Source: Actinomycetes bacterium (lineage in GTDB: Bacteria > Actinomycetota > Acidimicrobiia > Acidimicrobiales > Acidimicrobiaceae). Taken from it: a stretch of DNA of 7,386 nucleotides. Below, piece by piece: positions 1 through 7,246 of the stretch. The translations under genes were made by a program, and so were the position numbers. Each line of letters starts with the position of its first letter. The stretch's first letter is position 1. The stretch spans positions 1 to 7,386 of the forward strand of contig JAKBSX010000125.1 in the NCBI GenBank assembly GCA_021844725.1. The letters run 5' to 3'. Under the pieces are notes generated by a model. That model had not been told where the DNA came from. It saw nothing but the letters and a program-made list of their open reading frames with translations, and made no database searches.

Positions 1-600
1 GTCAAGCCCCGATATGGCGGGTCGTCGATTGGGATTGATGTGGTAGCCGATATTGGTACAGCGATTGCAAGACTTAAGTCAAATATCCACCTAAAGCAGG
101 GTGCAGTTATAGAGCCTTATCGCCCTGATCTTTTTGATTTGCAGGTAGCAGTAAGGGTGTACCCGGAGTTCGAGATTTCTGCAATAGAAAAGCCGGTCCG
201 CACAAAGAGCGGGTCGGAGATCCTTTCATATAAGGATAAGTATGTAGCCGGCGAGGGAATGGTTGCCGCCCCCAGAGAGCTTCCTGCTAACATTTCAGAC
301 CAGCAAGCAGTTAATATTCGCTCCTATGCAAGTTCCCTGGCGAGACTGCTTCCGATAAGGGGAATTTCAAGAATAGATTTTCTTAGCGACGGGTTAGGTG
401 AGCTTTATGTAAATGAAGTCAACACTATACCTGGGTCGTTATCGAAGTATCTCTTTGTTGATCCACCTATTGAATTTTCCCGACTACTTGATGACCTCTT
501 GAAGGAGGCATTCAGCAATAAGACATATTTGCCGGTAACCACAGGAGCGGATGGTTCTGCTCTATCGAGCGCCGGATCTATAGCCGCAAAGCTGGCATAG
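1..600 (+). CDS. D-alanine-D-alanine ligase-like ATP-grasp enzyme (3' part; 5' end outside the window)
   Basis: The reading frame is open from base 1 to the TAG at 598-600 and encodes 199 residues, so roughly the N-terminal 40% of a Ddl-sized protein lies upstream. The fragment opens with VKPRYGGSSIGI, the ATP-grasp motif that Ddl enzymes carry as VKPxxxGSSxG. Residues around SYKDKYVAGEGM match the Ddl segment near the flexible loop. RIDF followed by ELYVNEVNTIPGS is the Mg/ATP-binding and D-Ala-binding end. Such enzymes join two D-alanines using ATP in the cytoplasm for peptidoglycan precursors. The segment usually reading E..xxGxE is unusual here (EPYRPDLFDLQVAV), so this may be a divergent ligase or a paralogue with another substrate. 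The tail GADGSALSSAGSIAAKL resembles what I recall from actinobacterial members. The GTG at 40 is internal to the domain and is not the real start. Family is confident; exact substrate is not. Confidence 0.85.
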   Translation, partial: VKPRYGGSSIGIDVVADIGTAIARLKSNIHLKQGAVIEPYRPDLFDLQVAVRVYPEFEISAIEKPVRTKSGSEILSYKDKYVAGEGMVAAPRELPANISDQQAVNIRSYASSLARLLPIRGISRIDFLSDGLGELYVNEVNTIPGSLSKYLFVDPPIEFSRLLDDLLKEAFSNKTYLPVTTGADGSALSSAGSIAAKLA

Positions 601-698: not shown

Positions 699-720
699 AT
701 TATTCGGTACGGGAATGGCA

Positions 721-1326
721 ATGGACTGGCAGCTGCAACTGAACGACAATGAAGATCTTGTAATTGATCAAACCCCACATTGGAGTCTTTTCATCTCCTC
801 GGTGGTTCAGGTGTTTGTGATCGTTATTGTCTCGATTGTAGCTATTAATATGCTTTCCGGGCTTCCAATTTGGACGTTAGTTTTTCCGGTAGTGGTCCTG
901 CTCCTTGGATTTGTAAAATTATTATCTCGCCTGGCCAAATACAGGTTTTCCCACTTGATCATCACAACCGAAAGGTTGATCGACGTTCAGGGGGTTTTCA
1001 GGCGACGAATAAGGGAGATTCCTATTCGCCAGATTTCAAATCTGACCAGTTCCCAGCGCTTTTTGGAGAGACTTTACCGCTGTGGGTCCCTGAGGGTTGA
1101 ATACTCAGGTGAAATTGGGCATGACGATTTTTCTTATGTTCGGCGGCCAGATCGCATAGTTAGGTTTTTGAGCGGCCGAATTGCCAGCGGATTTCAGCCG
1201 GCCTCCGATCTTACCAGGCGCTCTCCGTTGGATGAGTTAGTCAAACTTGAAGAGCTCAGAAATCGGGGCACCCTGACTGAGCAGGAGTATGATCGAGCAA
1301 AATCTCGTCTTCTTGATCAGCTGTAA
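721..1326 (+). CDS. Membrane protein with bacterial PH domain (bPH2) and C-terminal SHOCT domain
   Basis: A 201-residue protein. After a short polar N-terminus come two strongly hydrophobic stretches, about residues 22-46 and 50-70, which form a membrane hairpin. They are followed by FSHLIITTERLIDVQGVF and IPIRQISNLTSSQRFLERL, typical of the bPH2 family (YdbS/YdbT-like). Residues from about 168 to the end (LDELVKLEELRNRGTLTEQEY...) form a SHOCT domain, a short C-terminal oligomerisation module. The protein is expected in the cytoplasmic membrane with both domains inside; its function is unknown. Two in-frame ATGs exist, at 715 and 721. GGGA at 711-714 abuts the first but sits six bases before the second, so 721 is preferred. 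The methyltransferase follows after 23 bases, suggesting co-transcription. Domain calls are confident; the start is uncertain by two codons. Confidence 0.85.
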   Translation: MDWQLQLNDNEDLVIDQTPHWSLFISSVVQVFVIVIVSIVAINMLSGLPIWTLVFPVVVLLLGFVKLLSRLAKYRFSHLIITTERLIDVQGVFRRRIREIPIRQISNLTSSQRFLERLYRCGSLRVEYSGEIGHDDFSYVRRPDRIVRFLSGRIASGFQPASDLTRRSPLDELVKLEELRNRGTLTEQEYDRAKSRLLDQL

Positions 1327-1349: not shown

Positions 1350-2159
1350 TTGAATATGAGAAGTCATCAGCTTTGCAGTACCTGGAGAGATGAATTATCC
1401 AAGTGGGCTATTCCTGAATCGATAATAGAAACTTCCAAACAGTTGCCCTGGAAGCTGAGCCCCAAGAAGTTTGCGCCAACCGAAGCCAGGAAAACCAGTT
1501 TAACTGCCACCCGTATATCAGAATTTATTCATCAGAATTCTGAAGGTGGCATCAATACGATCTTGGATGTCGGATGCGGTGCCGGCGGATTGTCAATTTG
1601 CTTTGCAGATGACATACAGTGCTTTATCGGTGTGGATGAATCCGAGGAGATGCTTGCGGCGTTTAGAGCTAATTGGGCTACAGAAAACCTTGAGTCAAAG
1701 AATCTAAGGACCATAATCGGTAATTGGCCGGATGTTGCCCCGTTGGCTGGCCAGGCTGACCTGGCGATCTGCGCAAATGTGTTGTTTAACGTGGCAGACC
1801 CCTGTGAATTCATCACAGCATTGGACCGTGCTGCGAAACGGGCAGTTTTCATAGAGGTGCATGAGAACCATCCGCACCATGTGGCGAATCCGGTTTGGAA
1901 ACATTTTTGGGGGTTAGACAGGCCCGATTCGCCTACTGCACGGGATCTGGTTGCGATTATTGAGTCACTTGGAATTTCTCCGCAGTCTGAAAGATTTTTT
2001 CGTGACCCTGAAGGCCCACGGGAGGTCGATGACGAACTTGTATTTTCGATTGGGCAAAGGGCATGTATTAATCCTGGCGATTTCGACCGTCTAAGAGATT
2101 TTTTGATTGAGAATCCGATTCGGCGTCCGGAATATCGGCTTATTTGGTGGAAAAAGTAG
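1350..2159 (+). CDS. Class I SAM-dependent methyltransferase
   Basis: A 269-residue protein with a Rossmann-type methyltransferase core. Glycine-rich motif I reads ILDVGCGAGG at about 71-80, the acidic end of strand 2 is GVDES at 94-98, and motif IV lies in ADLAICANVLFNV at 136-148. The first 60 residues (WAIPESI...LPWKLSPKKFAPTEAR) look like a substrate-side cap. The C-terminal part contains a His-rich patch, HENHPHH (171-177), then W/R-rich sequence ending in IWWKK. It should transfer a methyl group from S-adenosylmethionine to a small molecule or lipid; nothing shows which. Start: TTG at 1350 has CCAGGA ending nine bases upstream (1335-1340), while the ATG at 1356 is 15 bases from it. I keep TTG, but ATG is possible. 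It follows the PH/SHOCT gene by 23 bases and is probably in the same operon. A long opposite-strand open frame across this gene has the composition of a shadow. Confidence 0.85.
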   Translation: MNMRSHQLCSTWRDELSKWAIPESIIETSKQLPWKLSPKKFAPTEARKTSLTATRISEFIHQNSEGGINTILDVGCGAGGLSICFADDIQCFIGVDESEEMLAAFRANWATENLESKNLRTIIGNWPDVAPLAGQADLAICANVLFNVADPCEFITALDRAAKRAVFIEVHENHPHHVANPVWKHFWGLDRPDSPTARDLVAIIESLGISPQSERFFRDPEGPREVDDELVFSIGQRACINPGDFDRLRDFLIENPIRRPEYRLIWWKK

Positions 2160-2239: not shown

Positions 2240-2245
2240 TTGATT

Positions 2246-3124
2246 ATGACCAGAGCACATCTTGAAAAAGTAGAGATCGAGTTTGACACTTTCGGTGACC
2301 GGAGTAACCCCTGTCTTCTGCTGGTAATGGGCCTGGGGGTTCAGATGATAGCGTGGCCGGAACAGGTGTGCCAGGAATTGGCAGACCGGGGCTTTTTCGT
2401 AGTCAGATATGACAATAGAGACTGTGGACTTTCAACTAAGTTTGAAGATGCCGGAGTGCCAAATCTATTTGCCGGCCTATTGGGGGGTTCATCAACAGCG
2501 GCTTACACGCTAAAAGAGATGGCCGCAGATGCAGTCGGGCTGATGGATTTTTTGGAAATTGATCGTGCGAATATCGTAGGGATATCAATGGGCGGAATGA
2601 TTGCACAGCAAGCGGTGATTGACCACCCATCTCGTTTTATCTCGCTTTGTTCAATAATGTCTACAACAGGATCCCGTGATGTTGGTCAGCCATCTCCGGA
2701 GGTAATCAACGCTCTGCTCCAGCCTATGGCTCAAGACAGGGAATCAGCAATAGAGCGCTCAGTGGAGATATCGAGGGTTATTTCATCCCAATTATACTTT
2801 GACGAGGCAAGAGTGAGGGATCTGGCGGCGAGATCTTATGATCGTTGCAACTGCCCAGACGGCGTGGCAAGACAGTTAATGGCAATTGTGGTTTCCCCAG
2901 ATCGTACTGAAGCTCTAAAGGAAGTAAAAATTCCGACCTTGGTGATTCATGGTCTTCTGGATAAATTTGTGGATCCGAGTGGTGGAATCGCTACCGCAGA
3001 TGCAATCCCGGGTTCAAAGCTGGTCACGCTCGATGAAATGGCGCATGATATCCCAGTTCAGTTATGGCCGGCGATTCGAGATGCTATCATCGAAAATGCT
3101 GACAGGGGTAGGAGTTGGATGTAA
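2246..3124 (+). CDS. Alpha/beta-fold hydrolase
   Basis: A 292-residue cytoplasmic hydrolase with no signal peptide. The nucleophile elbow GISMGG puts the catalytic serine at 114. The acid is most likely Asp239 in HGLLD, and the histidine is His267 in EMAHDIP. MGLG at 28-31 occupies the oxyanion-hole loop, and RYDNRDCGLS (54-63) is typical of the family. The region EMAADAVGLMDFLEIDRANIVG resembles the large actinobacterial group annotated as esterases, non-haem haloperoxidase-like proteins or aclacinomycin-methylesterase-like proteins. The triad is complete, so an ester, thioester or similar hydrolysis is expected; the substrate cannot be told from sequence. Residues about 145-200 form the cap. 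It precedes an acyl-CoA racemase gene by 159 bases, which makes a lipid or acyl substrate a reasonable guess and no more. The start is set by GGAGAG six bases upstream. Confidence 0.88.
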   Translation: MTRAHLEKVEIEFDTFGDRSNPCLLLVMGLGVQMIAWPEQVCQELADRGFFVVRYDNRDCGLSTKFEDAGVPNLFAGLLGGSSTAAYTLKEMAADAVGLMDFLEIDRANIVGISMGGMIAQQAVIDHPSRFISLCSIMSTTGSRDVGQPSPEVINALLQPMAQDRESAIERSVEISRVISSQLYFDEARVRDLAARSYDRCNCPDGVARQLMAIVVSPDRTEALKEVKIPTLVIHGLLDKFVDPSGGIATADAIPGSKLVTLDEMAHDIPVQLWPAIRDAIIENADRGRSWM

Positions 3125-3283: not shown

Positions 3284-4441
3284 GTGAACACTAGCAATGG
3301 CCCCTTGGCCGGAATTCGGATAATCGAATTCTCTGGTATTGGGCCGACACCATTTGCCTGCATGGTCATGGCTGGTCTTGGGGCGGAGATAATACGTATC
3401 GACAGACCTAACTTTGCTCCGAAACTTGTAAATCTCGGGCTGGATAATAATGCTGATCTTATGGGTCGAGATCGGCGGTCAATCGTGCTTGATTTGAAAT
3501 CGCCCAAGGGGGTGGATCTGGCAAAACGTCTTGTTGCAACTGCTGAGGGAGTGATAGAAGGCTTCAGGCCAATGGTGATGGAAAGATTGGGTTTAGGGCC
3601 AGATGTGCTGGCTAAGGTGAATCCTCAAGTGACATATGTGAGGATGACCGGCTGGGGCCAAAACGGATCCTTGGCAAAAACGGCGGGCCATGACTTGAAC
3701 TACATAGCGGTCACAGGGTTATTGAATGCTATCGGCACAAAGGATGAGCCAGTAATTCCTCTAAATGTTGTCGGTGATTTCGGAGGAGGGGCCTGCTTCG
3801 CGGTAGTCGGAATGCTAAGCGGGATACTTAGTAGCAGGGTTCACGGAAGGGGACGCGTTGTTGATGCTGCCATTGTCGACGGAGTTTCACTTCTGGGTTC
3901 TATGTTTAGAGGAATGCTCGATCAGGGACTTTGGAGCGATCAAAGAGCTTCGAATCTACTAGACGGTGGGTCACCATTTTATGCGCTTTACCGGTGCAAA
4001 GATGGAAGATATGTTTCCGTTGCTGCACTTGAGCCGCAGTTTTTTAATAATTTGGTCGTTCGACTGGGCCTTCAGGACAATCCAAATTTCAAAGAGCAGT
4101 ACAATAAGGACAGCTGGCCACGAATGCGCGAGGATTTGACAGAAATATTTCAGAATAACGATTCCACGTATTTTGGTGATTTGTTTTATGCCACTGATTG
4201 CTGTTGCGCAGTGGTAGAGGATTTCCATTCTGCATTGGCAAATCGGCATTTGGCGGAGAGAGACGGGTTTGTGGAACTAAATGGGGTTATGCATCCCAGG
4301 GAGGCCCCTCGTTTTGACAATTATTCCCATGAAATCACGGCCCCTCCGAGACAAGGTCAGCACACACGTGAGATACTTGCCGAAATAGGTCTTTCCGCCC
4401 ATGACATAGAGTCCCTTATTGATCAAGGGGTTTGCGCTTAG
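3284..4441 (+). CDS. Alpha-methylacyl-CoA racemase-like CaiB/BaiF family protein
   Basis: A 385-residue, full-length family III CoA-transferase-fold protein, most like the alpha-methylacyl-CoA racemases (AMACR/MCR). These enzymes interconvert the 2R and 2S forms of 2-methyl-branched acyl-CoAs so that beta-oxidation can proceed. Signature stretches are GLGAEIIRIDRP (31-42), GRDRRSIVLDLKSPKG (61-76), EGFRPMVMERLGLGP (92-106), MTGWGQNG (121-128) and AGHDLNYIAVTG (134-145). By recalled alignment to the Mycobacterium tuberculosis racemase, Arg91, His126, Asp156 and Glu241 map to Arg101, His136, Asp165 and Glu250, with nearly the same spacing, so activity is likely. An unusual run of three cysteines (306-308) stands where relatives usually have one. 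The GTG start is supported by a strong ribosome-binding site. The stop codon overlaps the ribosome-binding site of the next gene. A true CoA-transferase is less likely because of the His/Asp pair. Confidence 0.92.
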   Translation: MNTSNGPLAGIRIIEFSGIGPTPFACMVMAGLGAEIIRIDRPNFAPKLVNLGLDNNADLMGRDRRSIVLDLKSPKGVDLAKRLVATAEGVIEGFRPMVMERLGLGPDVLAKVNPQVTYVRMTGWGQNGSLAKTAGHDLNYIAVTGLLNAIGTKDEPVIPLNVVGDFGGGACFAVVGMLSGILSSRVHGRGRVVDAAIVDGVSLLGSMFRGMLDQGLWSDQRASNLLDGGSPFYALYRCKDGRYVSVAALEPQFFNNLVVRLGLQDNPNFKEQYNKDSWPRMREDLTEIFQNNDSTYFGDLFYATDCCCAVVEDFHSALANRHLAERDGFVELNGVMHPREAPRFDNYSHEITAPPRQGQHTREILAEIGLSAHDIESLIDQGVCA

Positions 4442-4444
4442 GAG
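4440..4444 (+). promoter_or_regulatory. Ribosome-binding site overlapping the racemase stop codon
   Basis: AGGAG (4440-4444) shares two bases with the TAG stop (4439-4441) and lies four bases before ATG 4449. This chooses ATG 4449 over the in-frame TTG at 4419, which is inside the racemase gene and has no such site. The arrangement points to translational coupling. Confidence 0.55.
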
Positions 4445-4448
4445 TGCA

Positions 4449-5723
4449 ATGTTTTATAGCGGTCACGGTTCCGGTGGGCCGGTATTTCTCCATCCCGAAT
4501 CGCATCTCTTGGTGCTTGGCCCTCCCCGTTCCGGCAAGACGCGCTCCGTGGTGGTGCCAAACATTTTGTGTGCCAATGGCCCGGTAATTGCGACGTCGAC
4601 CAAAAATGATCTGATCGAAGCGACTTCAGAAGCCCGCAATCGTCTGGGTAAAGTGATGGTGTTCGACCCATCCGGACGGGTGAGCATACCATCTCATGCC
4701 ACCAGGGTCTACTGGTCTCCTTTAAACCCGAACGGATCATATTCTGAAATACAGAGCATAACTCGGGCAATGATAGATTCATCGATATTGGCTGGCCAAT
4801 CCCACGGATATTCCCACTGGGTTGAGCGAGCAGCTTCTTTGTTGGCCCCGTTGATGCACGCCGCACAGATCGCTGGCTACGAAATGGACACCGTCATGGG
4901 TTGGTTGAATCTTAGAGAGTGCAAGGATCCGGCTGGAATTTTGCGGGCATGTGGTGAGAATATGGCTCTCGATTCACTAAAGGGAATTCTGCTCAGCGAA
5001 GATAGAGAACGAAGTGGTATTTTTTCAACCGCACTTGGCCTCCTCGGCAGTTACAATTTTCCGGAGCTCAATTCTCAGAGCAATTTTGAGAGGTTTGATT
5101 CTCAAAAGTTTCTAAATTCTCTGGACACTCTGTATGTTGTTTCGCCTTCTTATATCCAAAAACTGGTGGCGCCGGTGATTGTTGGCTTGATTGACGAAGT
5201 TAAGAATCGGTCCTTCGTCTTGAGTTCAAATCGTGAGTCAGACTCCGCGAGGCCATCACTGTCGCTGATACTTGATGAGATGGCGAATGTTGCTCCACTT
5301 GGAGCAATTTCTTCAATTCTTTCAGAAGGGGCGTCACAAAAGGTGTTGCTGCTTGGAGCTTTGCAAGATTTGTCTCAGGCAAGAGTCAGATGGGGAGAAG
5401 CATCTTCAGGGTTCGTAACCCTGTTCGGATCGATGATTGTATTTCCCGGGATAGCCGATAGCCAAACTTTGCGCCAGCTGTCGGAAATCTCTGGGGTAAG
5501 GACATTTGAAAGCATCTCTGACGCGTTTGCCACTCCGCTCCATTACAGATTCAAGGTGCCAAGTTCTCGCTTGAGATCGTATGGATATCGGAATGTTTTG
5601 GAACCTTGGCAGATTGCCCGGGCGCCATTAGGAGAAGCCTATCTTTTTCGTAAATATCATCAGGTCAACCGGGTTATTCTCAGAGATGTTCCTGAGATAA
5701 ACCCGAGGATCAGAGAGCTTTAA
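4449..5723 (+). CDS. VirD4/TraG-like type IV coupling-protein ATPase without membrane domain
   Basis: A 424-residue P-loop ATPase of the VirD4/TraG/TraD group. Walker A is GPPRSGKT at 24-31, followed by VVVPNIL and the family stretch GPVIATSTKNDL (44-55). The helical all-alpha region lies at about 100-215. Walker B is LILDE at 273-277, followed by ANVAPL, SEGASQKVLLLGALQDLSQ (292-310) and SQTLRQLSEISG (338-349), typical of T4CP motor domains. Classical coupling proteins are hexameric inner-membrane motors that feed relaxosome DNA or proteins into a type IV secretion channel. This one starts about 23 residues before Walker A and has no N-terminal transmembrane helices, so it would be soluble or recruited by a partner. 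No relaxase, VirB-type or other transfer gene is visible here. The frame is intact, and the gene overlaps the upstream racemase signals, suggesting co-expression. It may be a domesticated ATPase or a remnant of an integrated element. Family is confident; role is open. Confidence 0.88.
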   Translation: MFYSGHGSGGPVFLHPESHLLVLGPPRSGKTRSVVVPNILCANGPVIATSTKNDLIEATSEARNRLGKVMVFDPSGRVSIPSHATRVYWSPLNPNGSYSEIQSITRAMIDSSILAGQSHGYSHWVERAASLLAPLMHAAQIAGYEMDTVMGWLNLRECKDPAGILRACGENMALDSLKGILLSEDRERSGIFSTALGLLGSYNFPELNSQSNFERFDSQKFLNSLDTLYVVSPSYIQKLVAPVIVGLIDEVKNRSFVLSSNRESDSARPSLSLILDEMANVAPLGAISSILSEGASQKVLLLGALQDLSQARVRWGEASSGFVTLFGSMIVFPGIADSQTLRQLSEISGVRTFESISDAFATPLHYRFKVPSSRLRSYGYRNVLEPWQIARAPLGEAYLFRKYHQVNRVILRDVPEINPRIREL

Positions 5724-5821: not shown

Positions 5822-5858
5822 GAGGTGGTGCTAGCGATCGATCTCAGTTTCTTTTTTT
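5822..5858 (+). terminator. Possible rho-independent terminator of the ATPase gene
   Basis: GAGGT (5822-5826) pairs with ATCTC (5841-5845), including one G-T wobble, and is followed by TTTCTTTTTTT (5848-5858), the longest T-run in the window. The stem is short and the 14-base loop contains its own palindrome, so folding is uncertain. The T-run lies inside the 3' end of the opposing lrp-like gene. Confidence 0.25.
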
Positions 5859-6112
5859 AATAGAGGCGCACTGTTCAGCAAATGGGCAGAGGGGCAGGTG
5901 AGGGTCCTGGTAACTCCATTTATTTGTTGGACTGCCGCTACCACTTCTGAACCTAGCTGCTCGATTGATGAGCATTGCACAACCAAAATTACATCGTATG
6001 GGCCGGTAACGAGATCTACTGAAACCGAACTCGGTAGGTCGTGGCACTTTTTAGCCACTTCAGAGGCTTTCCCTATTTCAGTTTGTATCAGTATGAATGC
6101 CCTAACGTCCAT
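5831..6112 (-). CDS. Stand-alone Lrp/AsnC ligand-binding (RAM) domain protein
   Basis: A 93-residue protein consisting only of the Lrp/AsnC effector domain, a dimeric alpha-beta barrel. It has no helix-turn-helix DNA-binding part. Typical stretches are RAFILIQTEIGKASEVA (4-20), LVTGPYDVILVVQ (34-46) and INGVTRTLTCP (64-74). GPYD and the TRTLTC strand form the family ligand/dimer signature. Such solo domains oligomerise and may bind amino acids or other small effectors; their function in actinobacteria is not settled. ATG 6112 is preceded on its strand by GGAG (bases 6118-6121) at five-base spacing, so the start is well supported. The last 14 residues (after HLLN) are a charged tail beyond the usual end. 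The gene lies downstream of thiL on the same strand, with about 140 bases between them, and converges with the ATPase gene. Confidence 0.88.
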   Translation of the reverse strand: MDVRAFILIQTEIGKASEVAKKCHDLPSSVSVDLVTGPYDVILVVQCSSIEQLGSEVVAAVQQINGVTRTLTCPSAHLLNSAPLLKKETEIDR

Positions 6113-6253: not shown

Positions 6254-7186
6254 TCAAAGATCATGCGCATATCCTTTGACAACTAATGGCTTGTTCCGAT
6301 ATAAAATCCCTTTAGTTTCCCTGAATCTGCCGATAACGATGGGAAGTGAAATATTTTGTTCTGAAAAACTCTCCATCACCAATTCTGGATTTGGATGGGT
6401 GAATATTATTTCGTAGTCTTCGCCGCCATACATGCAATGTTCTAAGGTTGCGCCCTCTGCTGCTGGCATGGTTTCTATGACTGCTCCAAGATTGGATTGG
6501 GTGCAGATATGATTTAGGTCCCCGATAAGGCCGTCACTTACGTCGATAGCTGAATTTGCCGGGAGTCGTGCAATTACTGCAGCTACATCGACCCTTGCCT
6601 TGGGAAGCTTATGGCTCCGTTGCAGTGGCCCTGATGAGCTGGGGTCCTGCTGTAAAAGTTCCAATCCAGCAGCCGAGGCTCCGGTGGGACCGGTTAGAAA
6701 TATGTGATCATTTACCGTAGCTGTGGATCTTTTAATTGGTTGCCCGATAGAGGAGCCCAATATTGCAACTGATACAAACAAATTTTCGGATGAGGAAAGA
6801 TCCCCGCCGGCAACCCTGAGATTGTATTCTTGACAGGCAGCTTTGACGCCTACGTAAAAGTTTGTAATGTCGAAATCTTTCGGACACGCTATAGCAATGG
6901 TTACGTAGCGCGGCATTCCCCCCATGGCAGCTATGTCAGAAACATTCACTGAGATTGATTTATATCCAATTTCAGCTGGGGTGTAATAAAGCCGGGAGAA
7001 GTGTATACCTTCCGCCATCAGGTCTGACGCGAATAGGTCGATGTTTTGTCCGGCACCATCAATGATCGCGCAATCATCTCCTAGTAGACTATCGACATCG
7101 GAATTAAAAGCAAATGCGAACTGTGATATGGTTTGAAAAATCTCATTTAATTTTTCAAACTCGTTGCCTGTATGAATAGGTTTCAT
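6254..7186 (-). CDS. thiL: Thiamine-monophosphate kinase
   Basis: A 310-residue enzyme of the AIR synthase/ThiL fold. It phosphorylates thiamine monophosphate with ATP to thiamine diphosphate, the last step of cofactor synthesis, in the cytoplasm. Numbered from ATG 7186, the motifs run in the expected order. They are GDDC (36-39), SDLMAEGIHF (54-63, normally DxLVEGVHF), NVSDIAAMGG (81-90), AGGDLSSS (126-133), HKLPKAR (192-198), AIDVSDGLIGD (213-223) and YGGEDYEIIFT (253-263). All metal and nucleotide motifs appear intact and the length is normal. An in-frame TTG at 7195 would add three residues. Neither start has a visible Shine-Dalgarno sequence, so ATG 7186 is chosen by codon preference; a short-leader or leaderless mRNA is possible. 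No TPP riboswitch-like sequence is obvious upstream. The solo Lrp/AsnC gene follows on the same strand. Confidence 0.95.
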   Translation of the reverse strand: MKPIHTGNEFEKLNEIFQTISQFAFAFNSDVDSLLGDDCAIIDGAGQNIDLFASDLMAEGIHFSRLYYTPAEIGYKSISVNVSDIAAMGGMPRYVTIAIACPKDFDITNFYVGVKAACQEYNLRVAGGDLSSSENLFVSVAILGSSIGQPIKRSTATVNDHIFLTGPTGASAAGLELLQQDPSSSGPLQRSHKLPKARVDVAAVIARLPANSAIDVSDGLIGDLNHICTQSNLGAVIETMPAAEGATLEHCMYGGEDYEIIFTHPNPELVMESFSEQNISLPIVIGRFRETKGILYRNKPLVVKGYAHDL

Positions 7187-7246
7187 TTGAGACAAGTTAG
7201 CTTTGAATTAGGTACATGTGGGGCAATTTGTGTAAAAATATAGGTG

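Follow-up and report, generated by a model that had tools for sequence, protein, structure and literature searches.

Gene A, which lies in a 7,386-nucleotide stretch of DNA from an actinomycete of the family Acidimicrobiaceae, order Acidimicrobiales (assembly GCA_021844725.1, contig JAKBSX010000125.1; the whole stretch is called here the window), encodes a VirD4/TraG-type ATPase of 424 amino acids (aa) without a membrane domain. This protein is, with a probability that we put at about 0.56, the relaxase-side coupling ATPase of a chromosomally fixed, conjugation-type DNA translocation system which is found in some of the Acidimicrobiales, with its genes at three loci: A itself, a MobF/TrwC-type relaxase, and a cluster for an SCO6881-like protein, an SCO6880-like protein, a VirB4 motor domain and a second VirD4 protein, B. 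An earlier note made from the letters of this DNA had called A an orphan and offered two readings: a domesticated, soluble pump that has taken on a new task, or the edge, within view, of a machinery for transfer. Rather than a solitary pump, the "orphan" is probably a component of a dispersed system that is conserved, since partner genes in the same genome track A across genomes.

A coupling ATPase without a membrane segment

The reading frame of A begins with the ATG at 4449 and its stop ends at 5723. The protein matches the Pfam families T4SS-DNA_transf (80.7 bits; cut-off 20.1) and TraG-D_C (47.9 bits; cut-off 22), and its domains are of the kind found in the VirD4/TraG coupling-protein families PF02534/PF12696. 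The nucleotide-binding and all-alpha domains span its whole length, and a TrwB-like fold, including the all-alpha domain, is predicted. The motor domain had been read as intact, and the Pfam scores together with GPPRSGKT, LILDE and QDLSQ (Table 1) bear this out. The Walker A and Walker B patterns are kept in 130/131 and 129/131 A rows, respectively, and QD[LM][ST]Q in 129/131; these rows score at least 400 bits on the A4 profile, with repeats of one genome counted (96 are distinct), and the line of about 400 bits that divides A from other type IV coupling proteins (T4CPs) was chosen after the tables were seen. Purifying selection acts on A, with ratios of nonsynonymous to synonymous substitution (dN/dS) of 0.073 and 0.085 in the closest same-genus pairs, dS being near saturation for most pairs.

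The N-terminal transmembrane region of coupling proteins is gone from A, as the earlier note had claimed: 23 residues stand before Walker A, no 19-residue window of the protein reaches a Kyte-Doolittle (KD) hydropathy of 1.6, and 128/131 A rows lack the domain as well, as judged by hydropathy only. A stretch of KD at least 1.6 occurs at the N-terminus of the other three rows, two of which (L122 and L136) have it in overlong mechanical open reading frames (ORFs) and the third of which (L155) is from Kineococcus; the ORF calls always take the longest possible frame, which makes some of them too long and puts some starts too far upstream. As far as sequences tell, absence of the membrane segment is a trait of the A family. 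A truncated gene or pseudogene was rejected because of the purifying selection and because the short N-terminus is found across families. Most T4CPs have an N-terminal transmembrane domain, the nucleotide-binding domain being their defining motif, and a TcpA mutant without the membrane domain still conjugates at a lower frequency (PMC7431656). An N-terminal hydrophobic stretch (KD 1.98 to 2.81) is present in 6/7 plasmid T4CPs as annotated.

Placement in a coupling-protein tree, which the earlier note had proposed, sets A apart from B and from most mobile T4CPs: among 68 coupling proteins, 33 A rows and the T4CPs of the plasmids pDK5 and pFLAC0026 form one group (support of 100 in the SH-like approximate likelihood ratio test, SH-aLRT), with B and the remaining mobile T4CPs outside it. 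The 33 are every third of the 96 distinct A rows; rows spanning fewer than 300 model positions were dropped, as were rows below 180 in the relaxase tree, and both are "quick" IQ-TREE trees with SH-aLRT as the sole support. The two plasmids, pDK5 of Rhodococcus (L175) and pFLAC0026 of Mycobacterium (L176), are small and list no type IV secretion system (T4SS) genes among their annotated genes. An N-terminal hydrophobic stretch is present in the T4CP of pDK5 and absent from that of pFLAC0026 as annotated; the latter plasmid is typed as mobilizable.

Relaxase, channel cluster and their co-occurrence with A

The genome that carries the window (G000) encodes on contig C23 a MobF/TrwC-type relaxase with a PF08751 match of 125.1 bits (cut-off 25), the sole family listed for it. 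This family is matched by 16/16 members of the relaxase alignment (E 0.001 or better) and is present in 41/43 genomes of the window's family; the MobP-type relaxase PF03432, tried as another candidate, was found in 0/99 genomes. The catalytic tyrosine and the three-histidine metal site, residues whose roles are those of their counterparts in TrwC, are intact in 67/67 relaxase rows, three of which are plasmid-borne or the second such protein of G000. For TrwC, Tyr18 is named as catalytic (PMC10359608). A C-terminal helicase domain is mostly not recognizable, AAA_30 being found in 4/16 alignment members. The relaxases of the window's family form one group that follows the genera (SH-aLRT 84), and in families elsewhere in the order A occurs together with the relaxase at one locus; the two genes adjoin in many relatives.

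Upstream of the relaxase, seven same-genus genomes share a TTGAC block followed, about 20 bases further, by another conserved box; the block is located upstream of 6503 in L075 and recurs in six same-genus loci. In the search for an origin of transfer (oriT), no shared repeat of at least 8 bases was recognized among seven same-genus relaxase flanks, and an exact-repeat scan of four stretches gave a single match, inside the upstream gene. G000 also encodes a second MobF-like protein of 1140 aa with a Walker A motif (L076:2749-6171, minus strand, contig C82), around which no T4SS-type match was found within 12.7 kb; three further genomes of the window's family (G017, G023 and G040) have PF08751 matches in frames about as long.

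The channel cluster of G000 lies on contig C40, downstream of serS, fur, a response regulator and a histidine kinase, and its four genes encode the SCO6881-like (VirB6-like) protein with six hydrophobic segments, the SCO6880-like protein with two, a VirB4-type motor domain protein of 408 aa, and B, a VirD4 protein of 437 aa with one N-terminal membrane segment. Such a segment, of KD at least 1.6, is found in 21/24 B rows, the other three being from the window's genus. Similarity to the NCBIfam families lies under the curated cut-offs (SCO6880_fam, 34.6 bits against 60; SCO6881_fam, 17.4 bits against 325), and among the aligned proteins matches at E 0.01 were obtained for 6/10 and 7/10, respectively. 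The cluster stands beside fur, response regulator, kinase or serS genes in five families (f1, f47, f48, f49 and f50) and without those neighbors in f38 (L060), while in f21 (L056) the contig ends. The relaxase adjoins SCO6881-SCO6880-VirB4 in G057 (L088), and in the one-contig genome G015 A is located at 609.6 kb, the relaxase at 580.9 kb and VirB4 at 209.5 kb. The statement of the earlier note that no relaxase or channel gene is in view applies to the larger ORFs of the window and not to the genome, where relaxase, VirB4 and channel genes occur; its alternative, the edge of a transfer system with partners at other places, stands as to the partners, namely the relaxase, VirB4, the second VirD4 and two membrane proteins.

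After the VirB4/B cluster come flgN, flgK, a flagellin-type gene, fliW, cheA and cheW at one locus (L074:8383-15940) and flgK, cheA and cheB at another (L065:10314-17370). Beside B, at the contig end in G000, there is an open-ended Ser/Thr-rich frame of 153 aa (L005:18158-18619, minus strand), and a related frame follows B in G001 (L069).

The weak NCBIfam similarity of the channel cluster would also suit a machine like Cmd, in which chromosomal VirB4/SCO6880/SCO6881 serves segregation or differentiation and the task of A is to move DNA within the cell; in cmd mutants chromosomes mis-segregate and plasmid transfer is unaltered (PMC2782261). We regard this as unlikely, given that the relaxase that tracks A has intact catalytic residues, for which an internal segregation machine has no obvious need, and that the text of the Cmd paper nowhere mentions VirD4, a relaxase, a coupling protein or TraG (PMC2782261).

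A is present in 40/43 genomes of the window's family, at more than 300 bits in 39 and as a contig-edge fragment in one, with G022, G030 and G031 lacking it, and in 16/56 genomes of the other families of the order, each family represented by one genome. Matches to A at 1e-60 were obtained in 24/198 genomes of an even sample of the class and in 27/296 of a sample of the phylum, the best 8 and best 5 candidates per genome being scored, respectively; those outside the order reach 207-321 bits, mostly in frames of more than 500 aa. Outside the window's family, VirB4 reaches at least 250 bits in 16/16 genomes with A and in 8/40 without it (Fisher 1.8e-8; 56 genomes of 56 families, ancestry uncorrected), a line that, like that of the second sample, was chosen after the tables were seen, and PF08751 is found in 16/16 genomes with A. 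Inside the family, VirB4 scores at least 180 bits in 37/40 genomes with A. The second sample was made up of 30 genomes met in the search of the class. The 11 of family f23 with A have VirB4 (11/11) and the relaxase (11/11), the latter in 10 of them on A's contig, adjacent and convergent, while among 13 genomes without A (f7, f20 and f53) VirB4 occurs in 1 and the relaxase in 2. That A is instead a stand-alone soluble DNA motor of repair, replication or defense, unrelated to the other parts, is very improbable alongside this tracking.

Chromosomal setting of A

Around A a recurrent order, with local changes, is found in the window's family: murF-ddl-bPH-methyltransferase-(hydrolase)-CoA-transferase-A-asnC-thiL-pckG-hemH. 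The loci surveyed were the best 80 of 278 named A loci, with flanks of up to about 10 kb on each side, often less, and many contigs cut. At least two genes of this housekeeping block were seen at 29/80 loci, and VirB4, SCO6880, SCO6881 and B were found beside A at 0/80, which answers the neighborhood check proposed earlier. A contiguous relaxase, T4CP and T4SS on a mobile element was not found among these best 80 loci, in which integrases were not sought, and because this contiguity was tested and is absent we do not class the A system with any kind of mobile element. The outcome by which the earlier note would have made A an ordinary truncated or mobile-element gene was not observed, an N-terminal hydrophobic stretch being present in 3/131 A rows and channel genes or B at 0/80 of the surveyed loci. 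The term "domesticated" fits A because of the missing membrane segment, the housekeeping synteny and the purifying selection; of the soluble domesticated pump proposed earlier, this part stands and its solitary nature probably does not.

That A and the relaxase are remains or helpers of mobile elements, mobilizing plasmids or integrated elements and kept by repeated acquisition, is improbable, more so than a Cmd-like role. The conserved housekeeping synteny within the window's family, the single relaxase group following genera, the selection on A and the lack of any T4SS gene near A at the surveyed loci speak against such an origin, for which one could cite the Iamia plasmid that holds SCO6880, a VirB4-type ATPase, a T4CP and MobF together, the two small plasmids with A-clade T4CPs (one, pFLAC0026, mobilizable and without a membrane segment as annotated), and the 1140 aa MobF-like protein of G000.

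Table 1. Features of the window, with positions counted from its first letter
Feature	Position	Strand	Basis
D-Ala-D-Ala ligase gene, 3' part; anchor of syntenic block	1..600	+	family match, synteny
Bacterial PH-domain membrane protein; syntenic block	715..1326	+	family match, synteny
Methyltransferase; syntenic block	1350..2159	+	family match, synteny
Alpha/beta hydrolase; syntenic block	2240..3124	+	family match, synteny
CoA-transferase family III (PF02515, 232 bits); syntenic block, no conserved functional partner	3284..4441	+	
TAGGAG, ribosome-binding site of A; overlaps CoA-transferase stop 4439-4441	4439..4444	+	read directly
A, VirD4/TraG-type ATPase without membrane domain	4449..5723	+	ORF, Pfam, predicted fold
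Walker A GPPRSGKT, residues 24-31 of A	4518..4541	+	read in sequence
Walker B LILDE, residues 273-277 of A	5265..5279	+	read in sequence
QDLSQ, residues 306-310 of A	5364..5378	+	read in sequence
Lrp/AsnC ligand-binding domain protein; convergent neighbor of A	5831..6112	-	family match, synteny
ThiL-type protein (AIRS domains); syntenic block	6254..7195	-	family match, synteny

The overlap of the ribosome-binding site of A with the preceding stop codon, reported earlier, is real, but the preceding gene is a CoA-transferase (Table 1) and not a racemase, and the supposed coupling of A to a metabolic gene is not conserved. The CoA-transferase is no more than 50 bp away from A in 34/54 loci with both genes (repeats of one genome counted); the remaining 20 comprise 19 with a gap of at least 858 bp and one in which the mechanical frames overlap by 509 bp. 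Because these 20/54 loci have other spacing, the coupling is considered local, and a CoA-transferase partnership was rejected on this ground and because 0/32 loci with A and the relaxase show two or more block genes. A partnership with AsnC is hinted at by protein P0031, an in-frame fusion of an A-type ATPase with the ligand-binding domain of AsnC; the AsnC gene is on the strand opposite to A in 54/54 loci with both, and P0031, from a single 4.5 kb contig, is probably an assembly or inversion artefact. In two same-genus genomes an ORF of 259 aa stands between the CoA-transferase and A (L035:7153-7932 and L036:9024-9803), and that of L035 has no Pfam match.

Proposed system and comparison with known systems

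The maintenance of the nickase center, the decay of the helicase and a soluble motor gene that travels along suggest that A serves as the motor on the side of the relaxase; two specialized VirD4 proteins would offer a simple way for A to function without a membrane domain. Adjacency and co-occurrence point to A as a candidate link from relaxase to channel. In the proposed mechanism the relaxase would nick a chromosomal origin, a putative oriT, and remain bound through its tyrosine; a cytosolic A hexamer would bind the relaxase and the single strand and drive unwinding and delivery, replacing the lost helicase domain of the relaxase; the cargo, presumably DNA, would then be handed over by contact to membrane-anchored B, the likely gate of the VirB4/SCO6880/SCO6881 channel, and exported, with exchange of chromosomal DNA as the putative purpose. 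Another outcome of export would be the release of chromosomal single-stranded DNA into the milieu for uptake, biofilm or signaling, as by the gonococcal genetic island, whose machine shares the kinds of parts (relaxase, coupling ATPase and channel) and works without donor-recipient contact (PMC12857230); release in place of mating is judged slightly less probable than a mobile-element origin.

Several observations weigh against A as the relaxase-side ATPase of such a system. The coupling proteins TrwB, PcfC and MobB lose function once the membrane domain is removed (PMC7431656), and the A-clade T4CP of plasmid pFLAC0026 from Mycobacterium marseillense (440 aa as annotated) has no membrane segment either. 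The search for an oriT beside the relaxase and A was negative, G000 has a VirB4 cluster of four genes, and at 19/80 surveyed loci, many of them on cut contigs, A is accompanied neither by the relaxase nor by the synteny block. The co-occurrence figures ignore shared ancestry, and PF08751 relaxases are also present in 18/40 genomes without A. Within the window's family three genomes (G017, G027 and G040, all at most 85% complete) have A and no VirB4 at 180 bits or more, G005, one of the 37, has VirB4 of the long-frame kind only, and G022 (96% complete) and G030 carry VirB4 and B without A. In the second sample six other genomes, with 258-313 bits on the A4 profile, do not fit (VirB4 3/6, relaxase 3/6), and the independent events are few because f23 is one family and the 13 controls are three.

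The wider proposition is that in a whole branch of the Acidimicrobiales a conjugation machine with an intact relaxase is non-mobile, passes down vertically and moves the cell's own chromosomal DNA, as a bacterial counterpart of archaeal Ced/Ted, with coupling split between a soluble VirD4 that accompanies the relaxase and another, bound to the membrane, at the channel. It is put forward tentatively and is rather doubtful. A dispersed system of this kind is not described in the open-access literature among the matches listed (titles and abstract openings). If the proposition were true, a bacterial lineage would have domesticated a conjugation machine together with its relaxase, which would bear on gene exchange in Acidimicrobiia; a natural coupling ATPase would function without the membrane domain that TrwB, PcfC and MobB need (PMC7431656); and relaxase docking and channel docking would be separable and testable in two proteins.

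By analogy, the A system may act in the manner of MobF conjugation, as its relaxase and coupling parts do. With TrwB of R388, VirD4 and TraG, A shares the nucleotide-binding and all-alpha domains, the Walker motifs and, in many relatives, a TrwC-type relaxase as neighbor; it differs in having no transmembrane domain, in a gene set apart from the channel genes, and in a genome with a second VirD4 that has a membrane segment. The nearest mobile arrangement found is plasmid unnamed2 of Iamia sp. SCSIO 61187 (MobF type), which likewise combines the SCO6880 family, a VirB4-type ATPase, a T4CP and a MobF relaxase, but at one mobile locus and with one T4CP bearing an N-terminal hydrophobic segment, whereas the A system has separate chromosomal loci, two T4CPs and a relaxase mostly without recognizable helicase.

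CmdABCDEF of Streptomyces coelicolor is also chromosomal and joins a VirB4-like ATPase to SCO6880/SCO6881-type membrane proteins, with a sporulation and segregation phenotype and neither VirD4 nor a relaxase named (PMC2782261); a possibly Cmd-like cluster with low family scores is present in G000, and A falls outside Cmd as described. The archaeal Ced and Ted systems are conjugation-type chromosomal machines described as domesticated and as importers, with no apparent relaxase reported (PMC9905601), while the A system is bacterial and has a relaxase with intact residues; the chromosomal location, as in Ced/Ted, is supported, and transfer of cellular DNA would be a further likeness. The T4SS of the gonococcal genetic island also pairs a relaxase with a T4SS and handles chromosomal DNA, but is F-like, lies in one island and uses a MobH relaxase (PMC12857230), unlike the dispersed, MobF-type A system. 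Finally, the chromosomal T4SS of Patescibacteria is, like the A system, lineage-wide, with VirD4 mostly encoded far from virB4; most of its clusters are described as having no relaxase (PMC12102498), in contrast to the window's family, where nearly every genome carries PF08751.
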